Source: Candidatus Thalassarchaeaceae archaeon
Lineage (GTDB): Archaea > Thermoplasmatota > Poseidoniia > Poseidoniales > Thalassarchaeaceae
Assembly: GCA_029250605.1 (NCBI GenBank)
Contig: JAQXEZ010000015.1
Span: forward strand, 1 to 38,038
Reading direction: 5' to 3'
DNA length: 38,038 bases
A program made the translations under genes and the position numbers. Below the pieces are notes generated by a model. The model saw nothing but the letters and a program-made list of their open reading frames with translations. It was not told where the DNA came from and ran no database searches. Every line of letters starts with the position of its first letter. The first letter of the stretch is position 1. Shown piece by piece: positions 4,031 to 38,038 of the stretch.

Positions 4031-5398
4031 CTAGGACCTGGAGAATGTGGGATTCTCACCCACCAGGTCCATCTCCCAACCCCTCTCGACCGACTCCTTG
4101 CCACCGACCGAGAGTAAGTGATGCAATTTCACCAAGGCCGATCCCGGCGGACATAGGGATCCATGACCGATTATCCCCATGTCTTTCTGGTCTCGGCCCT
4201 TCGAGTAGACGTTCATGTTGACGGGACCGTGAATCGCGTTCGTTACCACTACCACGACTCCCCCTTGGGCTATGTGGTCCGCTAGCATCATCCTAAGTCT
4301 GGTATTCTCCAGGCTATCATCCTCTGGGTTTGAAATCGGGAGGTGCCCCAAACCTGACCCGTGGAAGAGCAATGCGTCGAAGCCAGAGTCTATCGCTCCC
4401 TGCACTTGGTCAGGATGCAAATGGGGGTCGGAGATGAATTGGGCGATTCGTATCGACTCGTCGAACGGCTTCGGCGATATCGCCTCGACCCTAGCGTCAT
4501 GGGCCTCTGGTGAGTAGTCTATCCTCGCCTCATTCCCATCGATGAAGACATGCCCCAGAACATCCTGGTTAATCGGTTTGAAGGCATCCCTACGGGAAGA
4601 GTGGTACTTCCTGCAAGCACATCCTGGAAGAACGGCACAGCTACCATCCGAGGAGCTTGCATGCACGATCACCACTGAAGAATCCCGGTACCCAGAGGGA
4701 GTTGGCCCATGAGCTGCCCATTGTACAGAGGCGATGAGGTTCTCCGCGGCATCCGAGGATCCCCTATCGGGAGACCTCTGAGAGCCAGTGAGGACAATTC
4801 TACCAGGGGGCCTACCCCCTTGGCCCGACCATCCGTAAGAGATCGCTGCAGCCGATAGGTGCAAGGTATCAGTCCCATGGGTGATGACGCATCCAACCGC
4901 TCCTTCTGCGAAAGCCTCCTCGGTCGCCTTCAGCATTCTATTCCAATGCCTCGGACGAAGGTCGTCCGACCACATGTTGCCAAGTTTTACCGCACGAATC
5001 CTTGCTATGCCACGAAGTTCAGGAACAGCATCTAGGAGCTCGTGGGGGTCAAACCTGGCCGTCACCGCTCCTGTAGCATAGTCTACTTTGCTAGCAATCG
5101 TTCCACCGGTGTGGATGAGGTGTACGAGGGGCAGAGACTCATCTTGCGGCTCGATTTCCTCAAACTCCTCCTCGATCGTCGGCATCTCGTCGAGTACCTC
5201 GAACGAATCGACGTATGATTCTGGGAATGAAACATTGTAGCCATTCTGCAACTTCATCGTGATCAACTTGTTCCCTGAACTGGGCAGGGCGATTCCGGTA
5301 TGCTCTGCCTTCCCAGCCCACGTCTTCACCACCAGTTTGACGGGAGTTCCGGGCTTTGGCCAATCCTCCATGATTGCGGGCAGGGAGCCTCGGTCCAT
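4031..5398 (-). CDS. gatD: Glutamyl-tRNA(Gln) amidotransferase subunit D (archaeal GatDE)
   Basis: GatD is the amidase-side subunit of the archaeal GatDE complex, which converts Glu-tRNA(Gln) to Gln-tRNA(Gln). It releases ammonia from glutamine or asparagine using an asparaginase-type fold. The N-terminal GatD domain (PGTPVKLVVKTWAGKAEHTG) is followed by an asparaginase domain. HTGGTIASKVDY (96-107) supplies the first catalytic Thr, and THGTDTL (173-179) supplies the Thr-Asp pair. At 455 residues the length is normal. ATG 5398 is used; TTG 5401 (one codon earlier) and ATG 5371 (starting MEDWPKPGT, nearer the conserved domain) are alternatives, none with a Shine-Dalgarno. It lies directly downstream of tRNA-Met on the same strand. 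The partner GatE is not in the window. Confidence 0.92.
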   Translation of the reverse strand: MDRGSLPAIMEDWPKPGTPVKLVVKTWAGKAEHTGIALPSSGNKLITMKLQNGYNVSFPESYVDSFEVLDEMPTIEEEFEEIEPQDESLPLVHLIHTGGTIASKVDYATGAVTARFDPHELLDAVPELRGIARIRAVKLGNMWSDDLRPRHWNRMLKATEEAFAEGAVGCVITHGTDTLHLSAAAISYGWSGQGGRPPGRIVLTGSQRSPDRGSSDAAENLIASVQWAAHGPTPSGYRDSSVVIVHASSSDGSCAVLPGCACRKYHSSRRDAFKPINQDVLGHVFIDGNEARIDYSPEAHDARVEAISPKPFDESIRIAQFISDPHLHPDQVQGAIDSGFDALLFHGSGLGHLPISNPEDDSLENTRLRMMLADHIAQGGVVVVVTNAIHGPVNMNVYSKGRDQKDMGIIGHGSLCPPGSALVKLHHLLSVGGKESVERGWEMDLVGENPTFSRS

Positions 5399-5422
5399 CA
5401 AAGGCTCGCTTGTATCAGGTTT

Positions 5423-5572
5423 TGGTGCCGGGAGCGGGACTTGAACCCGCGACCTTCGGATGTCTCAGACATTTTCGGCTAGGCATGATGCGCTCATCGT
5501 TCGCGTCAGCAGAGAAATCTCCGCCAACTGTTCCCTATGAGTCCGACGCGCTACCAACTACGCCACCCCGGC
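5423..5572 (-). tRNA. tRNA-Met (CAU, elongator type) with an intron; CCA encoded
   Basis: The minus strand folds as a complete tRNA. The acceptor stem pairs GCCGGGG with TCCCGGC, with a G-U at the last pair. The D stem is GCGT/GCGC, the anticodon stem TCGGA/TCCGA, and the T arm GCGGG TTCAAGT CCCGC. Discriminator A is followed by an encoded CCA (5423-5425). The anticodon CAT is at 5537-5539. Exon 1 is 5536-5572 and exon 2 is 5423-5461, giving 73 nt plus CCA after removal of the 74-nt intron. Overall identity favours elongator Met; a CAU tRNA-Ile2 (which would need agmatidine at C34) cannot be wholly excluded by eye. Confidence 0.92.
5462..5535 (-). other. Archaeal tRNA intron (position 37/38) with bulge-helix-bulge junction
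   Basis: The 74-nt insertion lies exactly between A37 and A38, the commonest archaeal tRNA intron site. Around the splice sites, CTCA (tRNA positions 32-35) pairs with TGAG near the intron 3' end. This makes the 4-bp central helix, flanked by 3-nt bulges TA^G and AC^A where the splicing endonuclease would cut. The anticodon stem forms the outer helix. The helix on the intron side looks weak (only G-C and G-U visible), so this may be a relaxed motif. Confidence 0.85.
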
Positions 5573-5681
5573 ATATCATCAAGGCGGGAGAAGAGGCCAT
5601 TTGAGCATTGCCAGTAATGCAACAGCAACATTGCCCCCACACGCAGGGTTGATGTGTCGTCCTCTCTCGCCAGAACCAACC

Positions 5682-6608
5682 ATGGTCGATGTCGATACCG
5701 CCCTAAGGGCCAGCGCCTATTCCGGCAAGAAGGGGGGCGGTTCGAAGGGAGGGGACAAGAAGTCCACCTCTCTGGAGCCATTCGACCCATCCGCTCACGC
5801 TGAGAAGGAGAAGGCCGATGCAATTTCCATGTGGCTAGTAATCTTCTTCGGCCTATCTGTTGCTTTGCTGATGAGATTCTACATGATGCCAGGAATGGAT
5901 AGCTCGCAGCAGATACTATGGCTTCTCCCTCTCCTAATGATAGCACTCATCCGCCCCCTACACCAACTAGTGGTCCCCACCAGATTCTTCGAACAATTCA
6001 CTACTGGAAACTGGGTCAGGGCCTCTTTCCTCTACCTGTTCACGTGGCTCGCTCTATCCTTCGCCTTGGTTAACCCGCCAATCGCTGACATTGCAGCCCC
6101 ACATCTCGCCGGAGCAATCGACATAGCCAGCAGCGAGGGGATTTCTGACTCAGACCTGGAGGGGAGGGTCTACGAGATCAGGATCTCACAGGACTCAATT
6201 CCTGTTATTCTCGGACTGGGAGTCAGGGACAACGTAGATGCACGTAATTCGACGATGAACCTCACCATTCACAAAGTGGGTCAGATGGACCCGATAGTCA
6301 GTGTCTACGGATTGGTTTCTGATATTGCAGACGACGGCCCATCTGACACTTTCGACTCCGTCGATCCCAACGACTGGGTCAGGGGGCTGAAGAAGAATAC
6401 TCTAACTGGCGATTACTCGGGACCCAAGGTAGCACCTCATTCGGAAGATGTCTCCATGGCATGGAACCTGTGTCCAGATGGCTGCGGTCCGGGAGAGTAT
6501 GTAGTCCACATCTCCTTGATGGAGGAGGGGGAGATGATCCCATGGGAGGACGGCGACAATACATGGGCGAGGGAGTACACCCTCAGCATCCTGCAGTCCT
6601 CTTCCTAG
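5682..6608 (+). CDS. Membrane protein with large extracytoplasmic domain, unknown function
   Basis: I do not recognise this 308-residue protein. It has a Gly/Lys-rich N-terminal tail (residues 15-30) and three hydrophobic segments (about 49-66, 77-92 and 111-130). A soluble C-terminal half of about 175 residues follows, probably outside the cell. That half looks beta-rich and contains one close cysteine pair (CPDGCGPG). ATG 5682 (MVDVDTALRAS) is chosen because the upstream in-frame sequence overlaps the region in front of the tRNA and is not protein-like; TTG 5601 and ATG 5652 would also be in frame. It converges with rfcS, their ends overlapping by 4 bp. No operon partner is present. Confidence 0.65.
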   Translation: MVDVDTALRASAYSGKKGGGSKGGDKKSTSLEPFDPSAHAEKEKADAISMWLVIFFGLSVALLMRFYMMPGMDSSQQILWLLPLLMIALIRPLHQLVVPTRFFEQFTTGNWVRASFLYLFTWLALSFALVNPPIADIAAPHLAGAIDIASSEGISDSDLEGRVYEIRISQDSIPVILGLGVRDNVDARNSTMNLTIHKVGQMDPIVSVYGLVSDIADDGPSDTFDSVDPNDWVRGLKKNTLTGDYSGPKVAPHSEDVSMAWNLCPDGCGPGEYVVHISLMEEGEMIPWEDGDNTWAREYTLSILQSSS

Positions 6609-20492: not shown

Positions 20493-20657
20493 TTCTCGGG
20501 GGAACTCTCCCCTAGTCTTGAATCATGCCCCGGAAATGCCCAAGATGCCATTTGCCACAGTCAACGCATTCTTGTGGTGTCATGTTTTCGGAATGTCGTG
20601 GAAAGCAGCTCCGGCAGCGGCACAACCGATGCCCCAATCACGGCCTCGGGCGGGAAA

Positions 20658-23600
20658 ATGCCCATCCGAGTCATCACCGCAGCAGCGATTTTCGATGGCC
20701 ACGACGCAGCGATAGGCATCTTCCGGCGGATACTCCAGAGTCAGGGTTGCGAGGTGATCCACCTTGGCCACGACAGAGGTGCCGACGAGGTCGCACGCGC
20801 AGCCATCCAGGAAGATGCCCACGCTATCGCAATCACATCATACCAAGGAGGGGCAGTCGAGATGTTCACCCACACCAAGGAGATCCTGGATGAGGGGGGC
20901 TTCGGGCATGTCTTCTTGTTCGGCGGAGGTGGGGGGACCATCCTTCCGCACGAGATCAATCATCTCGCAGACAAGGGAATTTCTCGAATATACTCCCCAG
21001 ACGATGGCAGGGATTTGGGACTAGTCGGAATGGTACGGGATGCAATGGGGGAGGCATCGGGTGTAGATCTGCTAGAGAGTTCCAGGTTCGATTCCATATC
21101 AGGTCCGATCGATGCAGACGATCATGGTTCAGTATCCATGCTGCTGACCATGGCAGAGAACTCCCAAACTGACCACTTCTACGACGCCCTCTCAAAGGCT
21201 CGCTCTAGGGAGAAGGGGTCGGAGTGCCCCGTTGTCGGGATCACTGGGACGGGAGGCGCGGGTAAGTCTAGCCTCATGGACGAGGTGATGCTGAGGATTC
21301 GCAGAGACAACCCGGATGCCAGGGTCGCACTCCTAGCCACTGATCCCACTAGGAAGAAGACCGGTGGCGCCTTGCTGGGGGATCGAATCAGGATGAACTC
21401 CCTCTCCGACCCAAATCTGTTCATGCGCTCCTTCGCTAGCAGGGAAAGTGGGCGGGAGATAGCAGATTGCGTCGATCGAGCAGTCGAGGCCTGTCAGGCG
21501 GTCGGCTTCGATCTGGTCCTAGTCGAGACCAGCGGTATCGGCCAGGGTAATGATGCGATCACAGAGGTCGCAGACACCTCCATCTACGTCACAACCAGGG
21601 AGTACGGGGCACCGAGCCAGTTGGAGAAACTAGCAGCCCTTGACTTCGCCGACATCGTGGTACTGAACAAGTTCGACAGGCCCGGAGCCGAGGACGCGCT
21701 GACCGAGATTCGCAAACAGTTCCTTAGGAACCGGGAGGCCTTCGGCGAGAGTCCAGAGTCTATGCCAGTAGTGCCTACCATCGCCAGCCAGTTCGCCGAT
21801 GCAGGCGTAGATAGGCTATGGGAGATGATGGCCAACCTACTAAACGAGAGGTTCGGAACCGAATTCTTCTCCAGCAAACCTCGTCTGGGCTCAGACGGTC
21901 TCCCCAATCGAGACACCCCAATACCCCCGGAGAGGCAGGGCTACCTAGCCGAGGTCTCCTCAACTGTGAGGGACTATCACAAGAGGTCCGAAGACGTGGC
22001 AAGATCAGTCCGTCAGGTGCAGCAACTCGAAGCAGCAGCCAAACTGCTGGAATCCTCAGGCAAGAAGGATGCCCACCAGGACCTAATCGACGAGGCGAAA
22101 GATGTCCGCGGCACGATTCCCGAAGCAGCATGGGAATCTCTGGCAGATTTCGACTCAAAGGCCGAGGCGTATCGCTCCGGCCAGGCAAGCTATTCCGTCA
22201 GGGGGAAGGAAATCCCAGTCAAGACGACCCACGAGACACTTTCTGGCACCAAGGTCCCAAGAGTCGCCCTGCCAACCACAGAGGACTGGGGGGACAGGCT
22301 GTTGTGGATTCGAAAGGAGAACGCCCCCGGGTCATTCCCATACACTGGTGGAGTCTTCCCATTCAGGAGGGAGGACGAACTCCCAGTCAGGATGTTCGCA
22401 GGAGAGGGTAGCGCAGAGAGAACAAACAAGCGCTATCACTTCTTGTCAAAGGATCAGCCTTTCAACAGGCTATCAGTGGCATTCGACTCTCCCAGCCTGT
22501 ATGGGAACGACCCGCAGGAGAGGCTCGATATTTTCGGGAAGGTCTGCGAGTCCGGAGTCAGCATCAGCACGGTGGACGAGATGGACCGACTGTTCGAGGG
22601 CTTCGACCTATGTGCTCCGAGCACCTCGGTCAGCATGACCATCAACGGCAATTACTGGTGGCACCTTGCTGCCTTCTTCAGGGTGGCCATCAGGCAGCAG
22701 ACCAGGAAATTCGTCGAGGAGAATGGCAGGGATCCAAACGAGAAGGAATCCAAGGAGATTCGCATCTACGCCCTATCCACTGTGAGGGGCACCGTACAGG
22801 CAGACCAGCTGAAGGAGGCCATGGGTCAGAACACCCTAGTCTTCAATCTGGACACCGCCCTGAGGATGATGGGAGACGTCGCCGAGTTCTACGTCAACAA
22901 TGGCGTCCGCAACCACTACTTCGTCAGCATCAGCGGGTACCACATCGACGAGGCAGGGGCAAACCCAATCACGCAAGCAGCACTCACTCTCTCCAACGGA
23001 CTCACCTACGTCGAGCTGTTCAAGGCCAGAGGGCTGGATCCGGACAAGTTCCTCCGGAACTTCTCGTGGTTCTTCTCCAATGGGATGGATCCCGAGTATG
23101 CAGTGATCGGCAGAGTCTCCAGGAGGATCTGGGCAATAGTGATGCGAGATCTCTACGGAGTCGAAGAGAGGGGTCAGAAGCTCAAGTACCACATTCAGAG
23201 CAGCGGGCGCTCCCTCCATTCCCAGGAATTCACATGGAACGACTACCGAACTACCCTGCAGGCCCTCTACGCTCTCGCGGACAACGCTAACAGCCTCCAC
23301 ACCAACAGTCGAGACGAGGCCTTCGGCACTCCCACCGAGGACACCGTCAGGGATGCAGTAGCGATTCAGCTGATACTGGCCAAGGAGTACGGCTGGCTGA
23401 GGAACGAGAACCCACTTCAAGGATCATTCGTAGCGGACTTCCTCACTGATGAGGTAGAGGAGAAGGTCCTCCGAATCTTCGAGGAGATGCATAGCAGGGG
23501 AGGGGTCCTAGGGGCACTAGAGGTCAACTACCAGCGCAACCGTATTCAGGACGAGGGGATGCTCTACGAGCACCGCAAGCATACCGGAGAGATGCCAATA

Positions 23601-23894
23601 GTGGGTGTCAACACGTTCACTGACCCGGACTCATCCACCCCCTCGGCAGAGGAGTTCGACATCGACGTGACCAGGTCGGACGAGTCTGAGAAGATGATGG
23701 TCATTAGCAGGAACAGGGATTTCAAGGAAGCACACTCGAAGGAGTCCGAGGAGGGCTTGGCCAGGCTCAAGCAAGCCGCACGCGAAGGCGACAACCTGTT
23801 CGAAGTGATGATGGAGATCGTGGAACACTGCTCCGTGGGCCAGGTCACACAGGCACTATTCGAGAGCGGTGGCAAGTTCAGAAGGAACATGTGA
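20658..23894 (+). CDS. icmF: Fused isobutyryl-CoA mutase (IcmF): B12 domain, MeaB-like GTPase and mutase in one chain
   Basis: This 1078-residue adenosylcobalamin enzyme interconverts isobutyryl-CoA and n-butyryl-CoA. The order is that of IcmF. A B12-binding domain (1-135) has the ligand His in FDGHDAAIG. A MeaB-type G domain (about 190-420) has P-loop GTGGAGKSS, an ETSGIGQG switch and NKFDRPG for guanine. A linker then leads to the mutase barrel (about 530-1078). Two residues that separate isobutyryl-CoA from methylmalonyl-CoA mutases are in the isobutyryl state: Phe580 (RMFAGEG) and Gln724 (MGQNT), where methylmalonyl-CoA mutase has Tyr and Arg. Their 144-residue spacing equals that of the residues I recall from Cupriavidus IcmF. 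ATG 20658 is chosen because the B12 domain starts at once. Reverse flux could serve branched-chain amino-acid breakdown. Confidence 0.95.
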   Translation: MPIRVITAAAIFDGHDAAIGIFRRILQSQGCEVIHLGHDRGADEVARAAIQEDAHAIAITSYQGGAVEMFTHTKEILDEGGFGHVFLFGGGGGTILPHEINHLADKGISRIYSPDDGRDLGLVGMVRDAMGEASGVDLLESSRFDSISGPIDADDHGSVSMLLTMAENSQTDHFYDALSKARSREKGSECPVVGITGTGGAGKSSLMDEVMLRIRRDNPDARVALLATDPTRKKTGGALLGDRIRMNSLSDPNLFMRSFASRESGREIADCVDRAVEACQAVGFDLVLVETSGIGQGNDAITEVADTSIYVTTREYGAPSQLEKLAALDFADIVVLNKFDRPGAEDALTEIRKQFLRNREAFGESPESMPVVPTIASQFADAGVDRLWEMMANLLNERFGTEFFSSKPRLGSDGLPNRDTPIPPERQGYLAEVSSTVRDYHKRSEDVARSVRQVQQLEAAAKLLESSGKKDAHQDLIDEAKDVRGTIPEAAWESLADFDSKAEAYRSGQASYSVRGKEIPVKTTHETLSGTKVPRVALPTTEDWGDRLLWIRKENAPGSFPYTGGVFPFRREDELPVRMFAGEGSAERTNKRYHFLSKDQPFNRLSVAFDSPSLYGNDPQERLDIFGKVCESGVSISTVDEMDRLFEGFDLCAPSTSVSMTINGNYWWHLAAFFRVAIRQQTRKFVEENGRDPNEKESKEIRIYALSTVRGTVQADQLKEAMGQNTLVFNLDTALRMMGDVAEFYVNNGVRNHYFVSISGYHIDEAGANPITQAALTLSNGLTYVELFKARGLDPDKFLRNFSWFFSNGMDPEYAVIGRVSRRIWAIVMRDLYGVEERGQKLKYHIQSSGRSLHSQEFTWNDYRTTLQALYALADNANSLHTNSRDEAFGTPTEDTVRDAVAIQLILAKEYGWLRNENPLQGSFVADFLTDEVEEKVLRIFEEMHSRGGVLGALEVNYQRNRIQDEGMLYEHRKHTGEMPIVGVNTFTDPDSSTPSAEEFDIDVTRSDESEKMMVISRNRDFKEAHSKESEEGLARLKQAAREGDNLFEVMMEIVEHCSVGQVTQALFESGGKFRRNM

Positions 23895-24008
23895 GGCGAA
23901 CCCCCTCTCGCGGCTTTTCCCAAACACCCCACTAACTCGTGTCCCGAAACGCACCACTGCCTCAATGTTCTTAACCCCAAATGGAACGACTGGCGTTGTT
24001 GTCGGTGA

Positions 24009-24015
24009 TTTATTT
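24009..24015 (+). promoter_or_regulatory. TATA-box-like element before the smc operon
   Basis: TTTATTT lies in the 142-bp spacer after icmF, about 25 bases before the smc ATG. A Shine-Dalgarno-like GAGGTGA also lies in the gap, so if this is the TATA box the leader would be very short. An upstream promoter (for example near CTTAACC at about 23970) is also possible. Confidence 0.3.
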
Positions 24016-24036
24016 CCCGGTGACAGAGGTGAAGGG

Positions 24037-27000
24037 ATGCATCTAGTCAGGATTGAGGTCGAGAATTTCAAGTCGTTCGGAGGAGAGACAACCATCCCCT
24101 TCGAAGAAGGGTTCACAGCCATCACAGGCCCCAACGGAAGCGGCAAGTCAAACTGCGGGGACGCCATAGGATTCGTCCTCGGCCCCAAGTCCACCCGCTC
24201 ACTCAGGGCCTCCAACGTGTCAGAGCTCATCTTCAACGGGGGGAAGACAGGCAAACCCGCGAAGCACATGTCGGCGACGTTGGTCTTCAGCAACACGCCT
24301 GAGATCGGAGGAAGGAGGAGGCTACGCACAGATTCGGACGAGGTCTCATTCACGAGGACGGTTCGCCTAAACAGGAAGGGAGCCCCAGTTACATCATACA
24401 GGATCAATGGGGAACCATCCACGGCAACCGAGATGCGCAGAATCCTCTCGGAAGCCGGATTGAGGGGCGACGGGTACAACGTAGTCCTACAGGGCGACGT
24501 CACAAACCTAGCAACCATGACTCCGCACAAGAGGCGAGGAGTCCTCGAGGAAGTCGCAGGGGTAACTGCCTACGACGAGGAGATCCGCAAGGCGAACACC
24601 CAGCGAAAGCACGTGGAGAGCAGCATAGAGACGATCGACATCTTCGAGGCCGACCAGAAGGGCCGGCTAAAGGAACTCGAGAAGGAGAGGGAGCAGGCCC
24701 TGAAGTTCAGGGAGCTGAAGGGAGAGGCCGACCTGGCCAGACTGACCCTCGAGCAATCTAGGCACAGAAACAGGCAGGGAGAGGTGGAACTCCTCTCGGA
24801 AGAGAGGTCCAACTACGTCACGAAGGAGAAGGAAATATCCAAAGAGATGCTGGAATCCAGCCAGAGGCTAGACGAATACGACAAGGAACTAGTCCAAATC
24901 GGCAGGGAGATGGAAGGGGTACTCGGTGGTGATGCCAAGAAGATCTTGGACAGCATCAAACAACACGAAATCGACATGGAGACGGCCTCCGACAGAATCG
25001 GCGACCACAAGAGGGCCATCGAGACCTCCGAGGGGGAGGTCGAGATCCTAGTTCGAGAGAGGGAGGGTGCCGACACCGCGCGCTCGCAGGCCGAGCAGAG
25101 CATCACCGAACTCCGGCAAAGCGTCTCGGACTCCAAGGCCGCGCTAAAGAAGGCCGCCGATGATGAGGAAGAGGCCAGGAAGGCAATTCAATCGGGAGAC
25201 AAGCACGGACGTGATCTTAACAGGCTCCTGGGGAAGGCCACTGAGGGCGAGCAGACCGCAAGCACAGCATACTCTCAAGCCCAACTCGACTTCGATCGGG
25301 CGAACCAGAGGTCACAGATTGCATCCGAGAACCTAGCCGGCATAGAGCAGGCCTTCGAGACCGCAGAGCTAGAGAGGGACGACCAAGCCCTCATGGGCGA
25401 GGACCTAGAGGATTCCAGCCCAGACACCAACAGGGAGTCATTGGCAAAAGAGCTGATGAGCCTCCAGAAGCAGGAGAGGTCACTAGTCGACGACCGAGAC
25501 AGAGCCGAGTCCAAGTTAAGGAACGCCGAGATGGGACTCGCCAAGGCCAAGGCAAGGATGGAGGCCAGGTCAAGCACCCCTGGATCAGCACACACGCTGG
25601 CAGCCCTATCCAAGCTCAGGGAGAGCGAGGAGATCCACGGGATACTTGGGACTCTGGGCGAGCTGGCGACCCCGAAGGACCCATCTCACGAGGAGGCGCT
25701 GTCATTCGCATTCGGAGGCGGGCTCAGGAGCATCGTCGTGACATCCGACCACGTAGCCTCGAAGTGCATCGCATGGCTACGCAAGAACGGAGGCGGGAGG
25801 GCGACCTTCCTCCCTCTCAACAAACTTTCAGTCTCACGCCCTCAGGGCAGGACACTCCTCGTAGCTAGGAATCAAGGGGTGGTGGGATTCGTCCACGATC
25901 TTCTGGAATTCGACCCCAGCGTCGAGACCGCCGTCCGTTATGCAGGGAGGAACACGCTTGTCGTCGACTCCATGGACGTGGCGAGGGAGAACATGGGAGG
26001 GGTCCGGATGGTCACGCTAGACGGAGCCGTCATCGAGAGCTCAGGCGCAATGACCGGGGGCTCGTCATCGAAGAGGGATCGGCCGAGGTTCGACGGATCA
26101 GGGGCAGGTAGCTCCGGGATAGACAGGATGGAGATGGTCGTCCAAGAGGCAGGCCTACTGTTCTCCACCGTCGACGGCGCTCTGAGGGAATTACGCAGGA
26201 GCCAGCAGGAACTCAGAGACAGGATCCACGGGCTAGACAACGACGATCATTCGGTCAGGGTTAGGAACTGGAAGGCCGACATGGAAAGGGCCGAGAAGGG
26301 CGTCATCGAGATCAGAACCAAGCTCAAGGCGTCCAACAAGGAGCTCCACGAGTGCGAGTCTGAGAAATCCAGACTCTCAGGTATTTGCGAGAGCGCCCGA
26401 GTAGCCCTAGAGGAAGCATCGGCCGCTCGCACCGGTGCCGCGGAGGACCTGCAGAACCACACCCCCGATCACCTCTCTGACAAGCTAAGGGAGGCAGAGA
26501 GAGTCAGGACCGAGGCCGAGAGGACACGTGTCATGTCGGAGGCATCGATCGAGACATCCACCCAGCAGCTGAAGATTCTAACTGACAGGGTGGCTGTTCT
26601 AGAAAGGCAAGTAAAGTCACAGCAGGAGTCCATATCACGCGCAGAGAAGGGGATCGGCGAACTCAACTCGAACATTCGCGAGTCCGAGTCCGCCCTCGTC
26701 GAACTCAGGGAGCAGGCGTCGCAGTTCGACGAAGAGCAGAAGCTCCTGAACGACAAGAGGGACGAGATCGTCGAGGAGAGGGCCAGCCTGAGGTCCTATC
26801 TGGAGAGAATATCCCAGGAGAGGCAGAACATTTCCGGACGACTAGAGGAACTAAGCGTACAAATCAAGCAGAGGCGCGAAGCGCTGGACGAGATTGTTGC
26901 CGAGCTGGAGGAAGCAGGCATCCCAATCCCGCCAGAAGACGCGCATCTGCCAACAGTCGTGGAGGCGGAGCGGAGCGTGCAGGGGCTCGAGCGCCGCCTC

Positions 27001-27942
27001 CGCGCCCTCGGGGATGTCAACATGCTCGCCATAGAGCAGTACGACGCTGCCGCCTCGCGAATCACGGACCTCATCGCAGACGGCAAGCTCCTGAGGAAGC
27101 GCAGGGACGAGCTGTCCACGATAGCAGACCAGCTGGAGGATGAGCGAAAGACGCGTCTCCTCAACGTCTTCGAGCACGTGAACAACAACTTCCGAAGGGT
27201 GTACGAGATACTGCAGCCCACAGGCAGGGGCGAGCTGAGACTAGAGAACATCGACAGTCCCTTCGAGGGCGGTCTGGAGATGGCTTGCGTCCCACCGGGC
27301 AAGAGCCAGAACACCAGGAGGACAGCATTGTCCGGAGGCGAGAAGTCGATGGCCGCCCTCGCACTTATTTTCGCCATACAGGACTACGAGCCCAGCCCAT
27401 TCTACTACTTCGACGAGGTGGACCAGAACCTCGATCCATTCAACTCCGAGAAGATCGCAGCCCTCTGCAGGATGAGGAGCGGGATGGCACAGTTCATCAT
27501 GGTCACACTGAGGAAGGTCAGCCTCACTCTGGCCGACCACCACATCGGGATCACACACGCCGGCAACGGGTGCAGCCAGAGGATAACCGACTTCGACAGG
27601 GCAGCAGCATTGGACCTGAGCGAGGAGATAGAGGCCGAGGAGAAGGCCAGGGCAGCCTCCGAGGCGGAGAGGGAGGCTATGCCGGAACTTCCGTCCCCCG
27701 CTGACATGCCGAAGACCCCCGAACCACTCCCAGCACCGTCTAGCCTCGGTGGCCTCGCCGACAGGGCCGGGATCGACGTCCCGGAGGAGGGCATTCCCGA
27801 TCCCGAGGGCGAGGGGCTCCAGAGCCTCAGGGAAAGAACCGAGGATGTCAGCGAGGACATCGAGGAGTCGGAAGCGGCACTAGCAGAGGAGCAGGAAGAA
27901 TCACCACCTAGCCCTAGCATCGAAGTGAGGGAGGACGCATAG
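24037..27942 (+). CDS. smc: Chromosome segregation protein SMC
   Basis: This 1301-residue SMC ATPase forms the ring that organises and condenses the chromosome with ScpA and ScpB. The N-terminal head has GPNGSGKSN (Walker A, 31-39). Coiled coil 1 runs to about 520, the hinge lies at about 525-690 (HGILGTLGEL, GGGLRSIVVTSD) and coiled coil 2 runs to about 1030. The C-terminal head has the signature LSGGEKSMAALAL (about 1098) and Walker B FYYFDEVDQNLD. Beyond the head is a Pro/Glu-rich, probably disordered tail of about 110 residues, which makes the protein longer than the usual 1170-1190. ATG 24037 (MHLVRIEVENFKSF) follows GAGGTGAAGGG. The GTG start of scpA overlaps the stop codon by one base. 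Confidence 0.97.
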   Translation: MHLVRIEVENFKSFGGETTIPFEEGFTAITGPNGSGKSNCGDAIGFVLGPKSTRSLRASNVSELIFNGGKTGKPAKHMSATLVFSNTPEIGGRRRLRTDSDEVSFTRTVRLNRKGAPVTSYRINGEPSTATEMRRILSEAGLRGDGYNVVLQGDVTNLATMTPHKRRGVLEEVAGVTAYDEEIRKANTQRKHVESSIETIDIFEADQKGRLKELEKEREQALKFRELKGEADLARLTLEQSRHRNRQGEVELLSEERSNYVTKEKEISKEMLESSQRLDEYDKELVQIGREMEGVLGGDAKKILDSIKQHEIDMETASDRIGDHKRAIETSEGEVEILVREREGADTARSQAEQSITELRQSVSDSKAALKKAADDEEEARKAIQSGDKHGRDLNRLLGKATEGEQTASTAYSQAQLDFDRANQRSQIASENLAGIEQAFETAELERDDQALMGEDLEDSSPDTNRESLAKELMSLQKQERSLVDDRDRAESKLRNAEMGLAKAKARMEARSSTPGSAHTLAALSKLRESEEIHGILGTLGELATPKDPSHEEALSFAFGGGLRSIVVTSDHVASKCIAWLRKNGGGRATFLPLNKLSVSRPQGRTLLVARNQGVVGFVHDLLEFDPSVETAVRYAGRNTLVVDSMDVARENMGGVRMVTLDGAVIESSGAMTGGSSSKRDRPRFDGSGAGSSGIDRMEMVVQEAGLLFSTVDGALRELRRSQQELRDRIHGLDNDDHSVRVRNWKADMERAEKGVIEIRTKLKASNKELHECESEKSRLSGICESARVALEEASAARTGAAEDLQNHTPDHLSDKLREAERVRTEAERTRVMSEASIETSTQQLKILTDRVAVLERQVKSQQESISRAEKGIGELNSNIRESESALVELREQASQFDEEQKLLNDKRDEIVEERASLRSYLERISQERQNISGRLEELSVQIKQRREALDEIVAELEEAGIPIPPEDAHLPTVVEAERSVQGLERRLRALGDVNMLAIEQYDAAASRITDLIADGKLLRKRRDELSTIADQLEDERKTRLLNVFEHVNNNFRRVYEILQPTGRGELRLENIDSPFEGGLEMACVPPGKSQNTRRTALSGGEKSMAALALIFAIQDYEPSPFYYFDEVDQNLDPFNSEKIAALCRMRSGMAQFIMVTLRKVSLTLADHHIGITHAGNGCSQRITDFDRAAALDLSEEIEAEEKARAASEAEREAMPELPSPADMPKTPEPLPAPSSLGGLADRAGIDVPEEGIPDPEGEGLQSLRERTEDVSEDIEESEAALAEEQEESPPSPSIEVREDA

Positions 27943-33513: not shown

Positions 33514-34191
33514 ATGGTCGATGTGATGCTCCATCTTGTCGACCGAGGGTTGCTCGACGAGATAATGTCAATGACAGTGGAGGATATCTATTCTGCGATG
33601 GAGGGATCATCCCTCAGAGCATCCAGGCCCGAGGCAGATCCCAGATTCCATCGTGACTTCGACGTAGACTTGGAGGGGGAGGTACTCGAACTAATCGACG
33701 GGTCAGCCGATTTAGGTGGGGGGGAGAAGCTCTCACAGGCCATCGACGACGCTTCTATGGAACTCCGGCTCCTACTCGCCAAGTGGTGCTCCTCGGCCCA
33801 GTGGAGGTGCTGGGAAGCGCGCCTATTCCTATATGTAGAACCGATGCTGGAGGGGCCCGTAACAGATTCCGACGACTTCCTCCTACCAGAGGTGTGGGAT
33901 CAATTCTCAGAAGCCCTTTCAAGTACTGACAGGTCATCATACTCCGAGTCGGTGGTATTGGACTGGATGTCTAGGAGGGAGGATATGGGCGAGACGATGG
34001 AGCCGGCCGAGGACCCCATGATTCTGCCCACCATGGAATCCCACCGGACACTGAGCGAGTCGCTCTTCAATGCCATGGAATCGCTCAGAAGGTCAGAGAT
34101 GGAATTGATGGCTGGCAGGGAGTTCCTAGAGGCCGGCAGGTGGATGCTCGGGAGGGCGAAGATGTCCGAGGCGTGGGGGTCACAGGGTTGA
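33514..34191 (+). CDS. Unknown protein translationally coupled to nadM
   Basis: I do not recognise this 225-residue, acidic, soluble, mostly helical-looking protein. No signal peptide, membrane segment, zinc site or catalytic motif is evident. One fairly conserved-looking block is LLLAKWCSSAQWRCWEARLFLYVEP (about 88-112), with two cysteines and three tryptophans. The C-terminus (RRSEMELMAGREFLEAGRW) is probably a long helix. ATG 33514 is used, and an ATG four codons on is an alternative. Its TGA stop overlaps the TTG start of nadM (TTGA), so the two are made together. Coding use matches its neighbours, which supports a real gene. Confidence 0.6.
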   Translation: MVDVMLHLVDRGLLDEIMSMTVEDIYSAMEGSSLRASRPEADPRFHRDFDVDLEGEVLELIDGSADLGGGEKLSQAIDDASMELRLLLAKWCSSAQWRCWEARLFLYVEPMLEGPVTDSDDFLLPEVWDQFSEALSSTDRSSYSESVVLDWMSRREDMGETMEPAEDPMILPTMESHRTLSESLFNAMESLRRSEMELMAGREFLEAGRWMLGRAKMSEAWGSQG

Positions 34192-34799
34192 GCGATCTGC
34201 CATTGGAGCCACTGCCTCCAGAACAGCCCCCAGAGTCGGGCGTGGTGGTCCTGGGAAGGTTCCAACCCGTCCACAAGGGTCATGCCCTGATGATTCGAGC
34301 TGCCGATGACTGGCGTTCCGCAAATGCAAGCGACAAGGGGCTAATAATCGCCATCGGGTCATCCAACCAACCACCTTCGATCAGGAACCCATGGTCCTCG
34401 GAAGAGAGGGCTGCCATGCTCCGGGCATGGCTGGCCTCCACCGGGTTAGAGGCTAAGATAGTGGCAATCCCAGACATCGAAGATCCGCCCAATTGGGTCT
34501 CCCATGCCGAGAAGTACCATGGAAGTGCAGGATCCATCTTCACCACCGATGCCGAGACAGCAGAGCTCTACGAGTCATCTGGGTGGCAGGTGATAATGGG
34601 TGAGCTGGAGCATCGCGACTCGTATGAGGGATGGAGGGTCAGGGCAACAGCCCAGATGCTGTCGACCGTCCATGACGAGGACGGAGTTAGATCGGTTTTG
34701 GGGACCTCGGTCCCCGATGCGGTTGTTTCCATTATGTTGGATGAGGGGTCACTAGGGAGGCTCGCATTCATGGGCGAGGGTGGGGAGCCAGTAGGATAG
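34188..34799 (+). CDS. nadM: Nicotinamide-nucleotide adenylyltransferase (archaeal NadM type)
   Basis: NadM joins NMN and ATP to form NAD+. The nucleotidyltransferase signature is VVLGRFQPVHKGHALMI, with the HxGH motif. Archaeal NadM features follow: IAIGSSNQPPSIRNPWSSEERAAML (family SSxxSxTxxNPFTxxER) and YEGWRVRATAQML near the C-terminus, equivalent to the ISTxxxR-type segment. The start is TTG 34188, overlapping the stop of the preceding gene, with a G-rich stretch upstream. This gives 203 residues, slightly longer than the usual 170-180 because of a Pro-rich N-terminal tail (LEPLPPEQPPES). Its end is 15 bp from that of the large repeat protein gene, facing it. Confidence 0.9.
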   Translation: MSDLPLEPLPPEQPPESGVVVLGRFQPVHKGHALMIRAADDWRSANASDKGLIIAIGSSNQPPSIRNPWSSEERAAMLRAWLASTGLEAKIVAIPDIEDPPNWVSHAEKYHGSAGSIFTTDAETAELYESSGWQVIMGELEHRDSYEGWRVRATAQMLSTVHDEDGVRSVLGTSVPDAVVSIMLDEGSLGRLAFMGEGGEPVG

Positions 34800-34814: not shown

Positions 34815-37800
34815 CTAGAAGTCATCGAACTCGTCGAACTCGTCCTCACTCAGTTCCTCGTCGAACTCCTCGACCTCGTCCTCGCTGATTTCAGGAGTTT
34901 CCTCGACCGGAGTCTCAGCAACTGCTACTGGCTCCTCTGAGATTTCCTCGTCGAACTCCTCGAACTCGTCCTCCTCGAACTCCTCTGTCTTGTCCCCTCC
35001 ACTCGTCAAGTCGCGCCCTTGGAGCATTTCCTTGAGCTGGGCCTCGAACTCGTCCTCGCTGACCTCGGGGGCCTCTTCGACCACCGGGGCCTCTTCCTCG
35101 AACTCATCCTCGCTGACTTCATCGATGACCTCCGATTGACCCTGGTTTTCTTCTACGGAATCATCGTCATCCTCCAGGTCTAGGTCTCCCAGGATGTCAT
35201 CGTCATCATCGCCCTCGTTGTCATCAACTGCCTGTTCCACATGGCCTAGCCTTGCCTTGAACTTCGCCAGCTGGATGTCGTCCTCCTCGAGTCTTGAGAC
35301 CAACTTTGCCTTGTTCCCTCCAATTGTCAAGTCGCGCCCTTGGAGCATTTCCTTGAGCTGGGCCACAGTCATTGAGTTGTAGTCCACAGGCTCTGGTTCT
35401 TCCACTTCCTCCGGAGTTTCGTCTTCTGTATCCGCTCCTTCGACTTCGGGATCTTCGGACATCATGGCTTCGAATTCGGCCTCTTGCTTCCTCTTGTACG
35501 ACCTGTATCCGACAACTGAGACAATTAGCAGGATTACTGCAGCCGCGGCACCCCCTCCAATTAGTACGGGGTCGATTGGCTTGTCCACACAGGAGGTGCT
35601 GCCCTCCACGGGCTGGTGCTGTCCCGAGGGGCATTTCGTCAACACCGAGGAGCCCGGTGACTCTACGAAGTATCCAGATGGAGCGACTATGCAATTGGTC
35701 TGTCCGGCTTCTGGCTGGTAAGTGCCCTCTGAGCAGGCTGTCTGCCCAGTTGAAGCCTCAACTTCGACGAAGTATCCCGGTTGTGCCTCTTGGCACCCCG
35801 ACTCCCCTCCTAGGTCTTGCCATGTCCCTGGTTGGCATGGTAGTTGCTCGGTGGAACCAAGGGAGTCGACGTAGTATCCTGGAGATGACTCTGCGCAACT
35901 GGTCTGACCTGCTGCCGACTGGTAGGTCCCAGACGGACATGGGTTCGAAACCGCCATGCCATCTAGGCCGACGATGTATCCTGGCGGGGCACTCTCGCAC
36001 TCTATGCTTCCGAACTCAGATTGGAACGTCCCACTGGGGCAGGGAGTCTGCTCATCAGCTCCTGAGTTGGGAGCATGGAATCCAGGCTCTGCGCTATTGC
36101 AGGTGGTCATCCCCGTCTGGTTCTGCCACGTACCAGGGGGGCATGGCGTCTTCTCAATGGCCTTCGTACCGGTCACGAAATAGCCCGGCCCCGCAGAGAT
36201 GCAGCTTTCCTGTGCTTGGCCTGGTTGGTAGGTCCCGGATTGGCAGCCAGTCTGTGTGGTGGAACCTTCCGCGCCAACGTAGTAACCCGGGTCAGCATCC
36301 TCGCAGATAGTCTGCTTCACGTTGGGTTGGTATGTTCCAACAGGGCACGGGGTGTGATCGGACTGGCCCGTACCGGCGACATAGTGACCATCGCCAGCGT
36401 CAAGGCAACTCACCTGTCCTGTGCTTGGCTGGTATGTCCCCGCTTCACATGGAGTGGGAGTCATGGCCTGTGTAGTGTCCACGAAGTAACCCGCCTCGGC
36501 TTCGGTGCATTCGGTCATCCCATAGGCGGATTGGTATGTTCCAGCCGAGCACGAGGTCTGGCTACCAGCACCAGATGGGGTAGTTTCGACGTAGAATCCC
36601 GGCTCTGCATCTATGCATGCCTCGACAGTCTCGGCTCCCTCTTCGGGGTTGTACTTGCCCGGCAGGCACTTCGTCTGGCTGGATGAGCCGATTGAATCCA
36701 CGTAGTAGCCTATGTCCGCGGTCATGCAACTCTGCCTAGCGGTGCTGGGCTGGTACTCTCCGAGTTGGCAACTCTCCTGGGACGTCGCCGCTGATTGTTC
36801 CACGAAATGGCCCGGCGTCGCGTATATGCAACCGGTCTCCCTGGGGTCTGGCTGGTACGAACCAGGGGAGCAGGCAACTTGCGATGATGATCCCGGGGAG
36901 GCAGCGAAGTAACCCGCCTCGGCCTCCAAGCAGTCAGAAGAGACAACGGATCCCGTGAATGAGTTGTACGTCCCCGCATCGCAGGGCGTTTCGCTCGCGG
37001 AGCCGGAGACATCTACGTAGTGCCCCACATTTGCAGATAGGCATTCTGTCTGCGCGTAGTAGGGTTGGTACGATCCAGGGGAGCAAGCCGTCTGGCTGGT
37101 TGAGGCCAGAGAGTCGACGTAGTTCCCTGGATCTGCGTCTATGCATGAGGCCTGTCCCGGCGATGGTTGGAACTCTCCGAGTTGGCAGGGGCTCTGAGAG
37201 GTTGATCCGGGATAGGCGATGTAGTAGCCCGGTTGAGCGTCGATGCAGTCGGAAGAAGTGGTGGAACCGGTCATGTTGTTGTACGAGCCAGCGGAACAGG
37301 GAGTCTGGCTCGACTGCCCCTCCTGTTCCACGTAGTACCCGGGGCTGGCTTGGACGCAATCTAACGGGTCGCTAGAGCCAGAATTAGGGTTGTACGTCCC
37401 CAAACCACAGGGGGTCTGGGAGGTCGAACCGTTCGTGTCCACGTAGTACCCCGGGGACGCCGGGGCGCACGAGATCTGCCCCGTCTGGTCGGTCCAAGTG
37501 CCGAGGGCGCATTGGGTCTCATTCGTGTTCCCGTAACCCGATGCGTAGTGTCCCGGGTTGGCATCGATGCAGCTGGACTGCCCCGTCTGGTTCTGCCAAG
37601 TCCCTGGAGAGCACTGAGTAGGGGAGGACGCTCCGGCCCCGGAGTAGTTGCCCGCCGGTGTGTCTAGGCAGTCCGTGGAGGAGTTGGATGATGAGTTGGG
37701 GTTGTAAGTCCCCGCATTGCAGGGAGTCTGGCTCGTGGACCCGTTGGTGCCCACGTAGTGGCCCGGCGATGCCGGCGTGCAGGCGGCCTGACCGGTCATG

Positions 37801-38038
37801 TTGTTCCAGGTGCCCAGCCCACAGGGGGTCTGGGACGTAGACCCGTTGGTGTCCACGTAGTGGCCCACGCTCGCGTTCATGCAGCTGGGCTGGCCGGCCT
37901 GGTCCTGCCAGGTGCCGATGGAGCATGGCGTCGGGGCCGATGCCCCGGGCCCGGAGTAGCTCCCAGCAGGCACGTCACCGCAGTCGGAGGAGGAGTTGGA
38001 ACCGTTGCTCGGGTTGTACGTCCCCGCATCGCAGGGCG
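34815..38038 (-). CDS. Giant surface protein: tandem two-Cys (ephrin-receptor-like/GCC2-GCC3) repeats, one TM helix, cytoplasmic SAP domain; N-terminus beyond window
   Basis: The minus-strand frame is open from the window edge to the stop at 34815, giving about 1073 residues; the N-terminus is outside. At least 24 tandem units of 34-39 residues follow the pattern PCxxGTYQPxxGQxxC, then xxAxPGYYVxxxGSTSQT, two cysteines each. They resemble the GCC2/GCC3 or ephrin-receptor-like repeats of extracellular proteins. After the last unit comes one membrane helix (IGGGAAAAVILLIVSVVGY, about 35510-35570) with a positive stop (RSYKRKQ), so the repeats are outside. The inner part has a SAP-like motif (VAQLKEMLQGRDLTIGG, then NKAKLVSRL; 35285-35376), a second broken copy (34988-35049), and a very acidic Glu/Asp/Phe tail. 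A role in adhesion or envelope structure is inferred; no characterised homologue is known to me. Confidence 0.85.
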   Translation of the reverse strand, partial: PCDAGTYNPSNGSNSSSDCGDVPAGSYSGPGASAPTPCSIGTWQDQAGQPSCMNASVGHYVDTNGSTSQTPCGLGTWNNMTGQAACTPASPGHYVGTNGSTSQTPCNAGTYNPNSSSNSSTDCLDTPAGNYSGAGASSPTQCSPGTWQNQTGQSSCIDANPGHYASGYGNTNETQCALGTWTDQTGQISCAPASPGYYVDTNGSTSQTPCGLGTYNPNSGSSDPLDCVQASPGYYVEQEGQSSQTPCSAGSYNNMTGSTTSSDCIDAQPGYYIAYPGSTSQSPCQLGEFQPSPGQASCIDADPGNYVDSLASTSQTACSPGSYQPYYAQTECLSANVGHYVDVSGSASETPCDAGTYNSFTGSVVSSDCLEAEAGYFAASPGSSSQVACSPGSYQPDPRETGCIYATPGHFVEQSAATSQESCQLGEYQPSTARQSCMTADIGYYVDSIGSSSQTKCLPGKYNPEEGAETVEACIDAEPGFYVETTPSGAGSQTSCSAGTYQSAYGMTECTEAEAGYFVDTTQAMTPTPCEAGTYQPSTGQVSCLDAGDGHYVAGTGQSDHTPCPVGTYQPNVKQTICEDADPGYYVGAEGSTTQTGCQSGTYQPGQAQESCISAGPGYFVTGTKAIEKTPCPPGTWQNQTGMTTCNSAEPGFHAPNSGADEQTPCPSGTFQSEFGSIECESAPPGYIVGLDGMAVSNPCPSGTYQSAAGQTSCAESSPGYYVDSLGSTEQLPCQPGTWQDLGGESGCQEAQPGYFVEVEASTGQTACSEGTYQPEAGQTNCIVAPSGYFVESPGSSVLTKCPSGQHQPVEGSTSCVDKPIDPVLIGGGAAAAVILLIVSVVGYRSYKRKQEAEFEAMMSEDPEVEGADTEDETPEEVEEPEPVDYNSMTVAQLKEMLQGRDLTIGGNKAKLVSRLEEDDIQLAKFKARLGHVEQAVDDNEGDDDDDILGDLDLEDDDDSVEENQGQSEVIDEVSEDEFEEEAPVVEEAPEVSEDEFEAQLKEMLQGRDLTSGGDKTEEFEEDEFEEFDEEISEEPVAVAETPVEETPEISEDEVEEFDEELSEDEFDEFDDF
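35005..35364 (-). repeat. Exact 39-bp direct repeat (35005-35043 and 35326-35364) inside the SAP-encoding part
   Basis: The two copies are identical base for base and encode AQLKEMLQGRDLT. The copy nearer the membrane helix belongs to a complete SAP-like motif. The distal copy is followed by SGGDKTEEFEEDE, so the second half of the motif has been replaced by acidic sequence. This looks like a partial internal duplication. Confidence 0.85.
35590..38038 (-). repeat. Tandem repeat region encoding about 24 two-cysteine units, with a 312-bp higher-order period at the distal end
   Basis: Units of about 102 bp repeat throughout. Near the window edge three successive units (36+34+34 residues) form a block that occurs twice, with 312 bp spacing. 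For example, the CCGGAGTAG element is at 37639 and again at 37951, and units 1-3 read like units 4-6 in protein. Nearer the membrane helix the units have diverged. This points to recent expansion at the N-terminal side. Confidence 0.85.

Follow-up and report, generated by a model that had tools for sequence, protein, structure and literature searches.

SAP domains often bind DNA or RNA. Among described systems, the closest to a membrane-anchored module of this kind are the LEM/HeH proteins of the eukaryotic nuclear envelope (e.g. Src1/Heh1, MAN1, and LAP2), in which a helix-extension-helix domain faces the genome compartment; passages of one account state that the HeH domain of fungal inner-nuclear-membrane members can bind DNA directly (PMC4810098). 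Here, we describe a gene at the edge of a 38,038-nucleotide stretch of archaeal DNA ('the window'), which is the entire contig C14 (JAQXEZ010000015.1) of a 1.48-Mb, 20-contig genome of a Candidatus Thalassarchaeaceae archaeon (GCA_029250605.1). The product is best read, from its sequence, as a cell-surface protein of Ca. Poseidoniales that is of type I and crosses the membrane once, with a beta-helix head, a Cys-rich rod, one transmembrane (TM) helix, and a SAP domain predicted to lie inside the cell.

The outer parts of this protein have described counterparts as well. In part of the structural description of the Chlamydomonas mastigoneme, its Cys-rich domain (residues 1176–1853, 26 disulfides) is given a length of 26 nm (PMC11015965). 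The head resembles glycoside hydrolases (GHs), on the number of which, in marine group II (MGII), excerpts of the published surveys disagree: one records just one GH family for MGIIa and, for MGIIb, none (PMC6864105), and another records GHs for algal oligosaccharides in MGIIa and basal MGIIb (PMC6336850).

Protein architecture and topology

The minus-strand frame at the end of the window is still open at the contig edge, and the first 137 bases of C14 on the gene strand are identical, end to end, to the terminus of contig C2 of the same genome. Joining the two contigs yields a 1921-residue protein with, in order, a signal peptide (at the N-terminus, encoded on C2), a head, 28 two-Cys units, a TM helix, a SAP domain, and an acidic tail. 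This order is confirmed by a second genome of the genus (G018), because its gene has all the parts on one 279-kb contig: an uninterrupted frame of 2498 codons (2478 residues from the first Met) encodes a signal peptide, a head 89 per cent identical to that of the source genome, an added RCC1 block, Ephrin_rec_like repeats, a TM helix, a SAP domain, and an acidic tail. A single-contig reading of the gene was ruled out by the open frame and the 5′ half on C2, and a chimeric assembly behind the fusion by the single G018 contig together with a TM-SAP end in eight genomes. Most of the other ortholog contigs stop within the gene; repeat arrays therefore tend to break assemblies, and the units may exceed 28, a count that is also possibly too low if further identical units are hidden in the 137-bp overlap.

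The rod belongs to the GCC2-GCC3/Ephrin_rec_like repeats, with two Cys per unit and a Pfam score (PF07699) for the window part far above the cut-off (189.8 bits versus 23.1, E = 5.4e-57, thirteen stretches). That part holds 24 C-x2-G-x-aromatic motifs and 48 Cys, the last at residue 816; the joined protein has 56 Cys, regularly spaced (14 or 17 residues, then about 20). The best fold match of the modelled repeats is the mastigoneme Cys-rich domain (E = 1.7e-8), and if the archaeal rod scaled as the mastigoneme rod does, its 958 residues would span about 37 nm.

Hydropathy, the sole predictor behind our TM calls, gives the joined protein only two peaks, namely the signal peptide and one TM helix (peak at residues 1672–1690). 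Directly after the latter comes the basic stretch YRSYKRKQ, and the segment YRSYKRKQEAEFEAMM stands between the TM helix and the SAP domain. Sequons (N-x-S/T) number 44 before the TM helix and none after it. Because of the signal peptide, the basic stop-transfer, and the sequons, the repeats are predicted to lie outside and the SAP domain inside, on opposite sides of the membrane.

The SAP domain occupies residues 1733–1767 of the joined protein and scores 43 bits in Pfam (PF02037; cut-off 23.9, E = 3.3e-11). In a structural model that includes the tail (overall predicted local distance difference test score [pLDDT] 69.1), one TM helix is followed by SAP helices at model residues 238–247 and 255–285; the helix after the SAP domain is QLAKFKARLGHVE. 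The SAP segment alone had no match among PDB sequences at E up to 1, and the HeH profile (PF12949) did not match it at E up to 0.01; elsewhere in the clade, a HeH match with E = 0.00037 scored 20.6 bits, under the cut-off of 28.9. A chance motif is ruled out by the Pfam score, by purifying selection, and by SAP matches in all nine orthologs. Downstream, within the acidic tail, a 61-bp stretch repeats the first half of the SAP-coding sequence (92 per cent identical to 35304–35364); this broken copy is found in the window gene only and in none of eight ortholog tails, one of which (L064) is cut by a contig end. No NCBIfam family was matched in a scan of the window protein.

The initial annotation, made from the window alone, had described this frame from position 34815 to the contig edge as a chain with at least 24 two-Cys units outside and, inside, after one TM helix and a basic stop-transfer, a SAP-like motif and an acidic tail. 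The frame (34815–38036, minus strand) stands as it was drawn, its parts agree with Pfam, hydropathy, and residue counts, and the placement of repeats and SAP on either side of the membrane is upheld as a prediction. It had advised recovering the full gene from the adjoining contig and scoring both domains in Pfam; the joined gene encodes the 1921-residue protein, and both domains score above cut-off. It had allowed for two outcomes contrary to its reading, a SAP segment that is not a helix-turn-helix and a topology with both domains on one side; the model instead has a helix-loop-helix, at low confidence, and the two domains are predicted on opposite sides. The head escaped that annotation because the contig ends within the gene, and the incomplete second SAP copy is likewise absent from it.

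The beta-helix head

The head comprises about 680 residues. A profile built from 35 head sequences (A2) matches, over partial stretches, the PDB entries 3VST (a xylosidase, XylC; 2e-11) and 5MQP (the GH BT_1002; 1e-6), which we take to be members of families GH120 and GH141, respectively. An AlphaFold2 model of the head is strand-rich (pLDDT 73.6, predicted template modelling score 0.75), and Foldseek again places 5MQP first (E = 9.1e-14), with 3VST at E = 2e-10; sequence identity to these folds is 13–14 per cent. The model and its matches indicate a right-handed parallel beta-helix, the handedness being taken from the matches. Alignment A2 contains invariant D/E/W/R columns. NCBIfam gave one weak match on the head (20.6 bits versus a cut-off of 380). 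By profile and model, the head is probably a glycan-acting beta-helix of the kind found in glycan enzymes, and it may have enzymatic activity.

Heads of this type are present in 78 of the 292 genomes of the order and in 13 of its 22 genera, in open frames of up to 5082 residues. Twenty loci with beta-helix relatives were taken from other genera. Fifteen of these run into a contig end, one (L182, in G060) stops early and is apparently split in two frames, and one (L194) is too short; the C-termini of the remaining three (L187, L195, and L196) consist of a TM helix and a short tail. The loci L177–L193 carry giant surface proteins with GH141/GH120-like heads, the 5082-residue frame being L187:2408-17656(-). 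Independently of the SAP question, these giants suggest a glycan-acting surface repertoire.

Orthologs and selection within the genus

Orthologues in other Poseidoniales, which the initial annotation had advised looking for, were found as full TM-SAP matches in 8 of the 27 other genomes of the genus (72–83 per cent identity over the full 122-residue query); the other 69 relatives had, among the matches listed, only partial TM-SAP matches. The SAP profile matches all nine orthologs (the window protein included) at E up to 0.01, with 42.5 bits in G018, these nine having been found through that tail. Across the nine sequences, the ratio of non-synonymous to synonymous polymorphism (pN/pS) is 0.234 in the repeats, 0.250 in the TM helix, 0.040 in the juxtamembrane segment, 0.375 in the linker, 0.148 in the SAP domain, and 0.225 in the post-SAP helix. 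The SAP domain is under purifying selection.

In five further genomes (G002, G015, G019, G020, and G021), which carry the head at 81–93 per cent identity, the TM-SAP segment was not found, an absence indistinguishable from gaps, as their head loci end a few hundred bases past the head or, in one case (L157), inside it. In two of these genomes (G019 and G015), paralogs with RCC1 and GCC repeats (L208, L210, L228, and L229) have tails ending in YMYSEDLTVGQLKK or YMYSEDLTVGQIRKKD; these ends resemble the N-terminal half of a SAP domain and are possible SAP remnants. The source genome also encodes a 2198-codon protein that combines an S8 subtilase with RCC1 and Ephrin_rec_like repeats (L017:4557-11153(-)).

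SAP domains across the clade

Four SAP matches above cut-off occur in the source genome, on the surface protein, on the ribosomal proteins eS1 and eL32, and on a 706-codon protein in which an N-terminal SAP domain, a TM helix, and an ectodomain precede a ParA-like gene located directly downstream. In eS1 the SAP domain is C-terminal and in eL32 N-terminal, here and in relatives (L018:3464-4381(-) and L025:1087-1821(-)). Twelve genomes of at least 90 per cent completeness contain 76 SAP matches (74 above cut-off), and 71 of the 76 proteins were recovered. Membrane proteins by hydropathy make up 31 of the 71, a raw count for which no statistical enrichment is claimed. Weak hydropathy windows of 1.62–1.74 (L109, L139, L141, and L142) were counted as soluble, and weak members of the ParA-linked family (from 1.62) as membrane proteins, since their relatives show clear helices.

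The 31 membrane proteins comprise 12 SAP-TM-ectodomain proteins (one per genome), 7 SAP-TM-M28 peptidases (Pfam M28 in all 4 of the 7 that were scanned), 7 polytopic or small proteins, and 5 others: the surface protein under study (2), S8 subtilase-TM-SAP proteins (2, both in Pfam), and a giant of genome G030 (L145:477-5170(+); 1564 residues). The last has a TSP_3-like ectodomain (under cut-off) and a TM helix, and its basic, SAP-like tail lies where the contig stops, with a SAP score of 18 bits by Pfam (under cut-off) and 24.4 in the genome search. Five further S8-TM-SAP proteins (L066–L069 and L073, one Pfam-checked) lie beyond the twelve genomes. The other 40 SAP proteins include eL32 (11), eS1 (9), FKBP-type proteins (5), and Pus10 (5), as assigned by clustering and, in some cases, Pfam. 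Examples are an FKBP-type protein (L121:1696-2547(+)), Pus10 (L146:2830-4620(-)), and a protein with ThiF and AAA ATPase domains (L109:2594-5422(-)); the Pus10 SAP domain is above cut-off in L140 and under it in L144 and L146.

For 23 of these 31 membrane proteins, we compared the two sides of the TM helix. Next to the helix, 17 have more basic residues on the SAP side than on the other, 1 has the same number on both, and 5 have fewer; every one of the 23 has fewer Cys on the SAP side. The topology signal is clear for the surface protein and its G018 relative and fair to weak for the other SAP membrane families.

The SAP-TM-ectodomain protein is present in all twelve genomes and, by motif, has a ParA-like gene directly downstream in eight (e.g. 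L026:829-2949(-), with ParA from 828 down; L076; and L116:2934-5033(+), with ParA at 5103-6053(+)); by the same motif, none was found beside it in four of the five genomes of the family labelled f2. One of the ParA-like genes has AAA_31 and CbiA/ParA domains above cut-off and reaches 94.7 bits with ParA_partition, under the cut-off of 180. Together, the SAP-TM-ectodomain protein and ParA form a candidate membrane-nucleoid link.

Across the phylum, 68 of 194 genomes have a SAP match: 48 from the same order as the window (3–11 matches each), 5 from another family of the class (3–6), and 15 from outside the class (1–2). The 20 matchless genomes among those listed are all outside the class, and a further 106 are matchless. 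SAP multiplication marks the order and its class. The initial annotation knew of no described system with the layout of the window protein; that the layout stands alone is not supported, as TM helix and SAP domain recur across the order with other ectodomains. The surface protein is a variant of a clade-wide TM-SAP habit, and the habit is the more interesting result. In our searches of open-licence papers, we found no description of it, nor of such a prokaryotic link from surface to genome or ribosome.

What the SAP tail may bind

That this is an anchored surface protein with a disulfide rod and an inside SAP dock is nearly certain. As the best explanation of the whole, we propose, tentatively and with less than even confidence, a glycan-acting head on a rod with a SAP tail docking inside, most likely onto nucleic acid. 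The rod would hold the head away from the membrane, the head would bind or cut polysaccharide outside the cell, and the tail would dock the protein to something in the cell interior, the likeliest partner being a nucleic acid or nucleic-acid complex (the nucleoid, or ribosome/RNA). This partner is put forward because the closest SAP domains are on eL32 and eS1 (the nearest non-orthologous ones in these genomes, with 17–21 of about 35 residues identical), and because the clade has several unrelated membrane proteins with a SAP domain on their predicted cytoplasmic face, including a family encoded next to a ParA-type ATPase. The protein may thus tether nucleic acid or the nucleoid; the charge of the SAP core and the acidic tail make a protein partner roughly equally likely.

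Several observations weigh against one part or another of this proposal. For the head, the Foldseek TM-scores are 0.37–0.44 to 5MQP (0.34–0.44 over 5MQP and 3VST), and Pfam GH141_M scores 21.3 bits (21.0 in the G018 relative) against a cut-off of 27. For the tail, the SAP region is modelled at low confidence (pLDDT about 53–71, and below 50 in loop 249–254), and the three other-genus beta-helix relatives with a visible C-terminus have no SAP tail. All five membrane SAP proteins of opposite charge bias belong to the ParA-linked family, and 8 of the 23 examined have one or two sequons in the part that carries the SAP domain, where in some they are denser than across the membrane. The 231 residues after the TM helix include 92 D/E and only 15 K/R, and the net charge of the SAP core in eight orthologs is 0 (six) or −1 (two), the +3 of the window protein being confined to it; mean values elsewhere are 0.8 for eL32, 2.3 for eS1, and 2.2 for the ParA-linked family. 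The core charge argues against simple non-specific DNA binding. Acidity alone excludes nothing, because the SAP domain of eS1 in the source genome is also preceded by an acidic linker.

With the same architecture, the SAP domain could instead be a protein-docking module that engages a scaffold or a sorting partner in the cytoplasm and touches no nucleic acid, a possibility that we regard as real if doubtful. It would account for the neutral or negative ortholog cores in very acidic surroundings, and it has a parallel in metazoan LEM domains, which are described in passages of PMC4810098 as binding the protein BAF; moreover, the HeH/LEM profile weakly matches five of the nine orthologs (best E = 0.00032), the window protein not among them. 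The ribosomal setting of the closest SAP domains, however, speaks for nucleic acid. That setting could also be taken at face value: the membrane SAP domains may share an RNA ligand with eS1 and eL32 and so hold the synthesis of surface proteins close to the membrane. Such a ribosome or RNA tether would fit the acidic linker of eS1 and the further SAP domains on Pus10 and FKBP-type proteins, but the ParA-type gene adjoining one SAP membrane protein hints at DNA, and we consider this version unlikely.

Very improbable, in our judgement, is a SAP tail that is a mere passenger, fused or decaying without an essential role, the protein being no more than an anchored surface enzyme or adhesin. The SAP domain has been seen on this protein within the genus only, the three relatives elsewhere end without it, the window carries a broken second copy, and the paralogs are short-tailed, ending in two genomes like half a SAP domain; yet the domain is kept, under purifying selection, in nine of nine orthologs with a visible tail (found by that tail). 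A wider form of the docking proposal, in which Poseidoniia would have a general inside-docking system, with SAP tails tying many membrane and surface proteins, among them stalked glycan enzymes, peptidases, and a ParA-linked protein, to the nucleoid or ribosomes, as a prokaryotic counterpart of the LEM/HeH proteins by which chromatin is tied to the inner nuclear membrane, strikes us as somewhat unlikely. SAP tails on several membrane proteins may nevertheless be how these archaea tie surface to cell interior, and if the tails bind nucleic acid, uncultured ocean archaea would physically link surface enzymes to genome or ribosomes. As small soluble constructs, the tails are directly testable.

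Sequence features and neighbouring genes

The features of the locus are collected in Table 1. The gene converges with an adenylyltransferase-like neighbour, for which the nicotinamide mononucleotide adenylyltransferase models of NCBIfam score under their cut-offs; by motif, the same neighbour adjoins the ortholog in five of eight relatives (L058–L062). Elsewhere in the window (20574-27942, plus strand), two long adjacent frames of 1106 and 1357 residues, both with GTG starts, lie in a stretch whose AT skew reaches 0.33.

Table 1. Positions in the window of the surface-protein gene, its parts, and its neighbour.
Feature	Position	Strand	Evidence
Surface-protein gene, C-terminal 1073 residues	34815..38036	-	Open reading frame; 5′ part on contig C2 (locus L005, ~17084 to end)
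Ephrin_rec_like two-Cys units, 24 (28 in joined protein)	35589..38036	-	Pfam; motif and Cys counts; fold match
Predicted single TM helix segment (PIDPVLIGGG...VVG)	35508..35579	-	Hydropathy 2.69; helix in model
Basic juxtamembrane segment YRSYKRKQEAEFEAMMSED	35451..35507	-	pN/pS 0.04, most conserved of six stretches compared
SAP domain	35280..35384	-	Pfam; pN/pS 0.148; helix-loop-helix in low-confidence model
Acidic, predicted cytoplasmic tail after SAP, repetitive (DEFEEFDEE-like)	34815..35279	-	Sequence
Partial SAP duplicate, first half only	34983..35043	-	DNA comparison
Exact 137-bp overlap of C14 edge with end of contig C2 (G000:C2:97625-97761)	37902..38038	.	Sequence identity
Nicotinamide-nucleotide adenylyltransferase-like neighbour, convergent	34140..34799	+	General domain TIGR00125, 31.6 bits versus cut-off 27.7

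Comparison with known systems

The rod resembles the Cys-rich part of MST1 from Chlamydomonas mastigonemes; MST1 polymerises into a double-helical filament, whereas no evidence of such a filament was found for the archaeal protein. The head shares its beta-helix with GH141 BT_1002 and GH120 XylC by profile and model, at the low identity given above. With the LEM/HeH proteins, the surface protein has in common a membrane anchor and a small domain predicted, from signal peptide, TM helix, stop-transfer, sequons, and Cys, to face the side of the genome. Homology may go no further than the small SAP/HeH fold. LEM/HeH proteins sit in the eukaryotic nuclear envelope, and their non-metazoan members are described in passages of PMC4810098 as carrying two membrane domains, the N- and C-terminus both lying inside, whereas the archaeal protein is single-pass. 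Closest in setting are the other SAP membrane proteins of Poseidoniales (S8 subtilase-TM-SAP, SAP-TM-M28, and the SAP-TM-ectodomain protein beside ParA), in which the ectodomains are unrelated and the SAP domain is N- or C-terminal but, as in the surface protein, lies on the predicted inner side.

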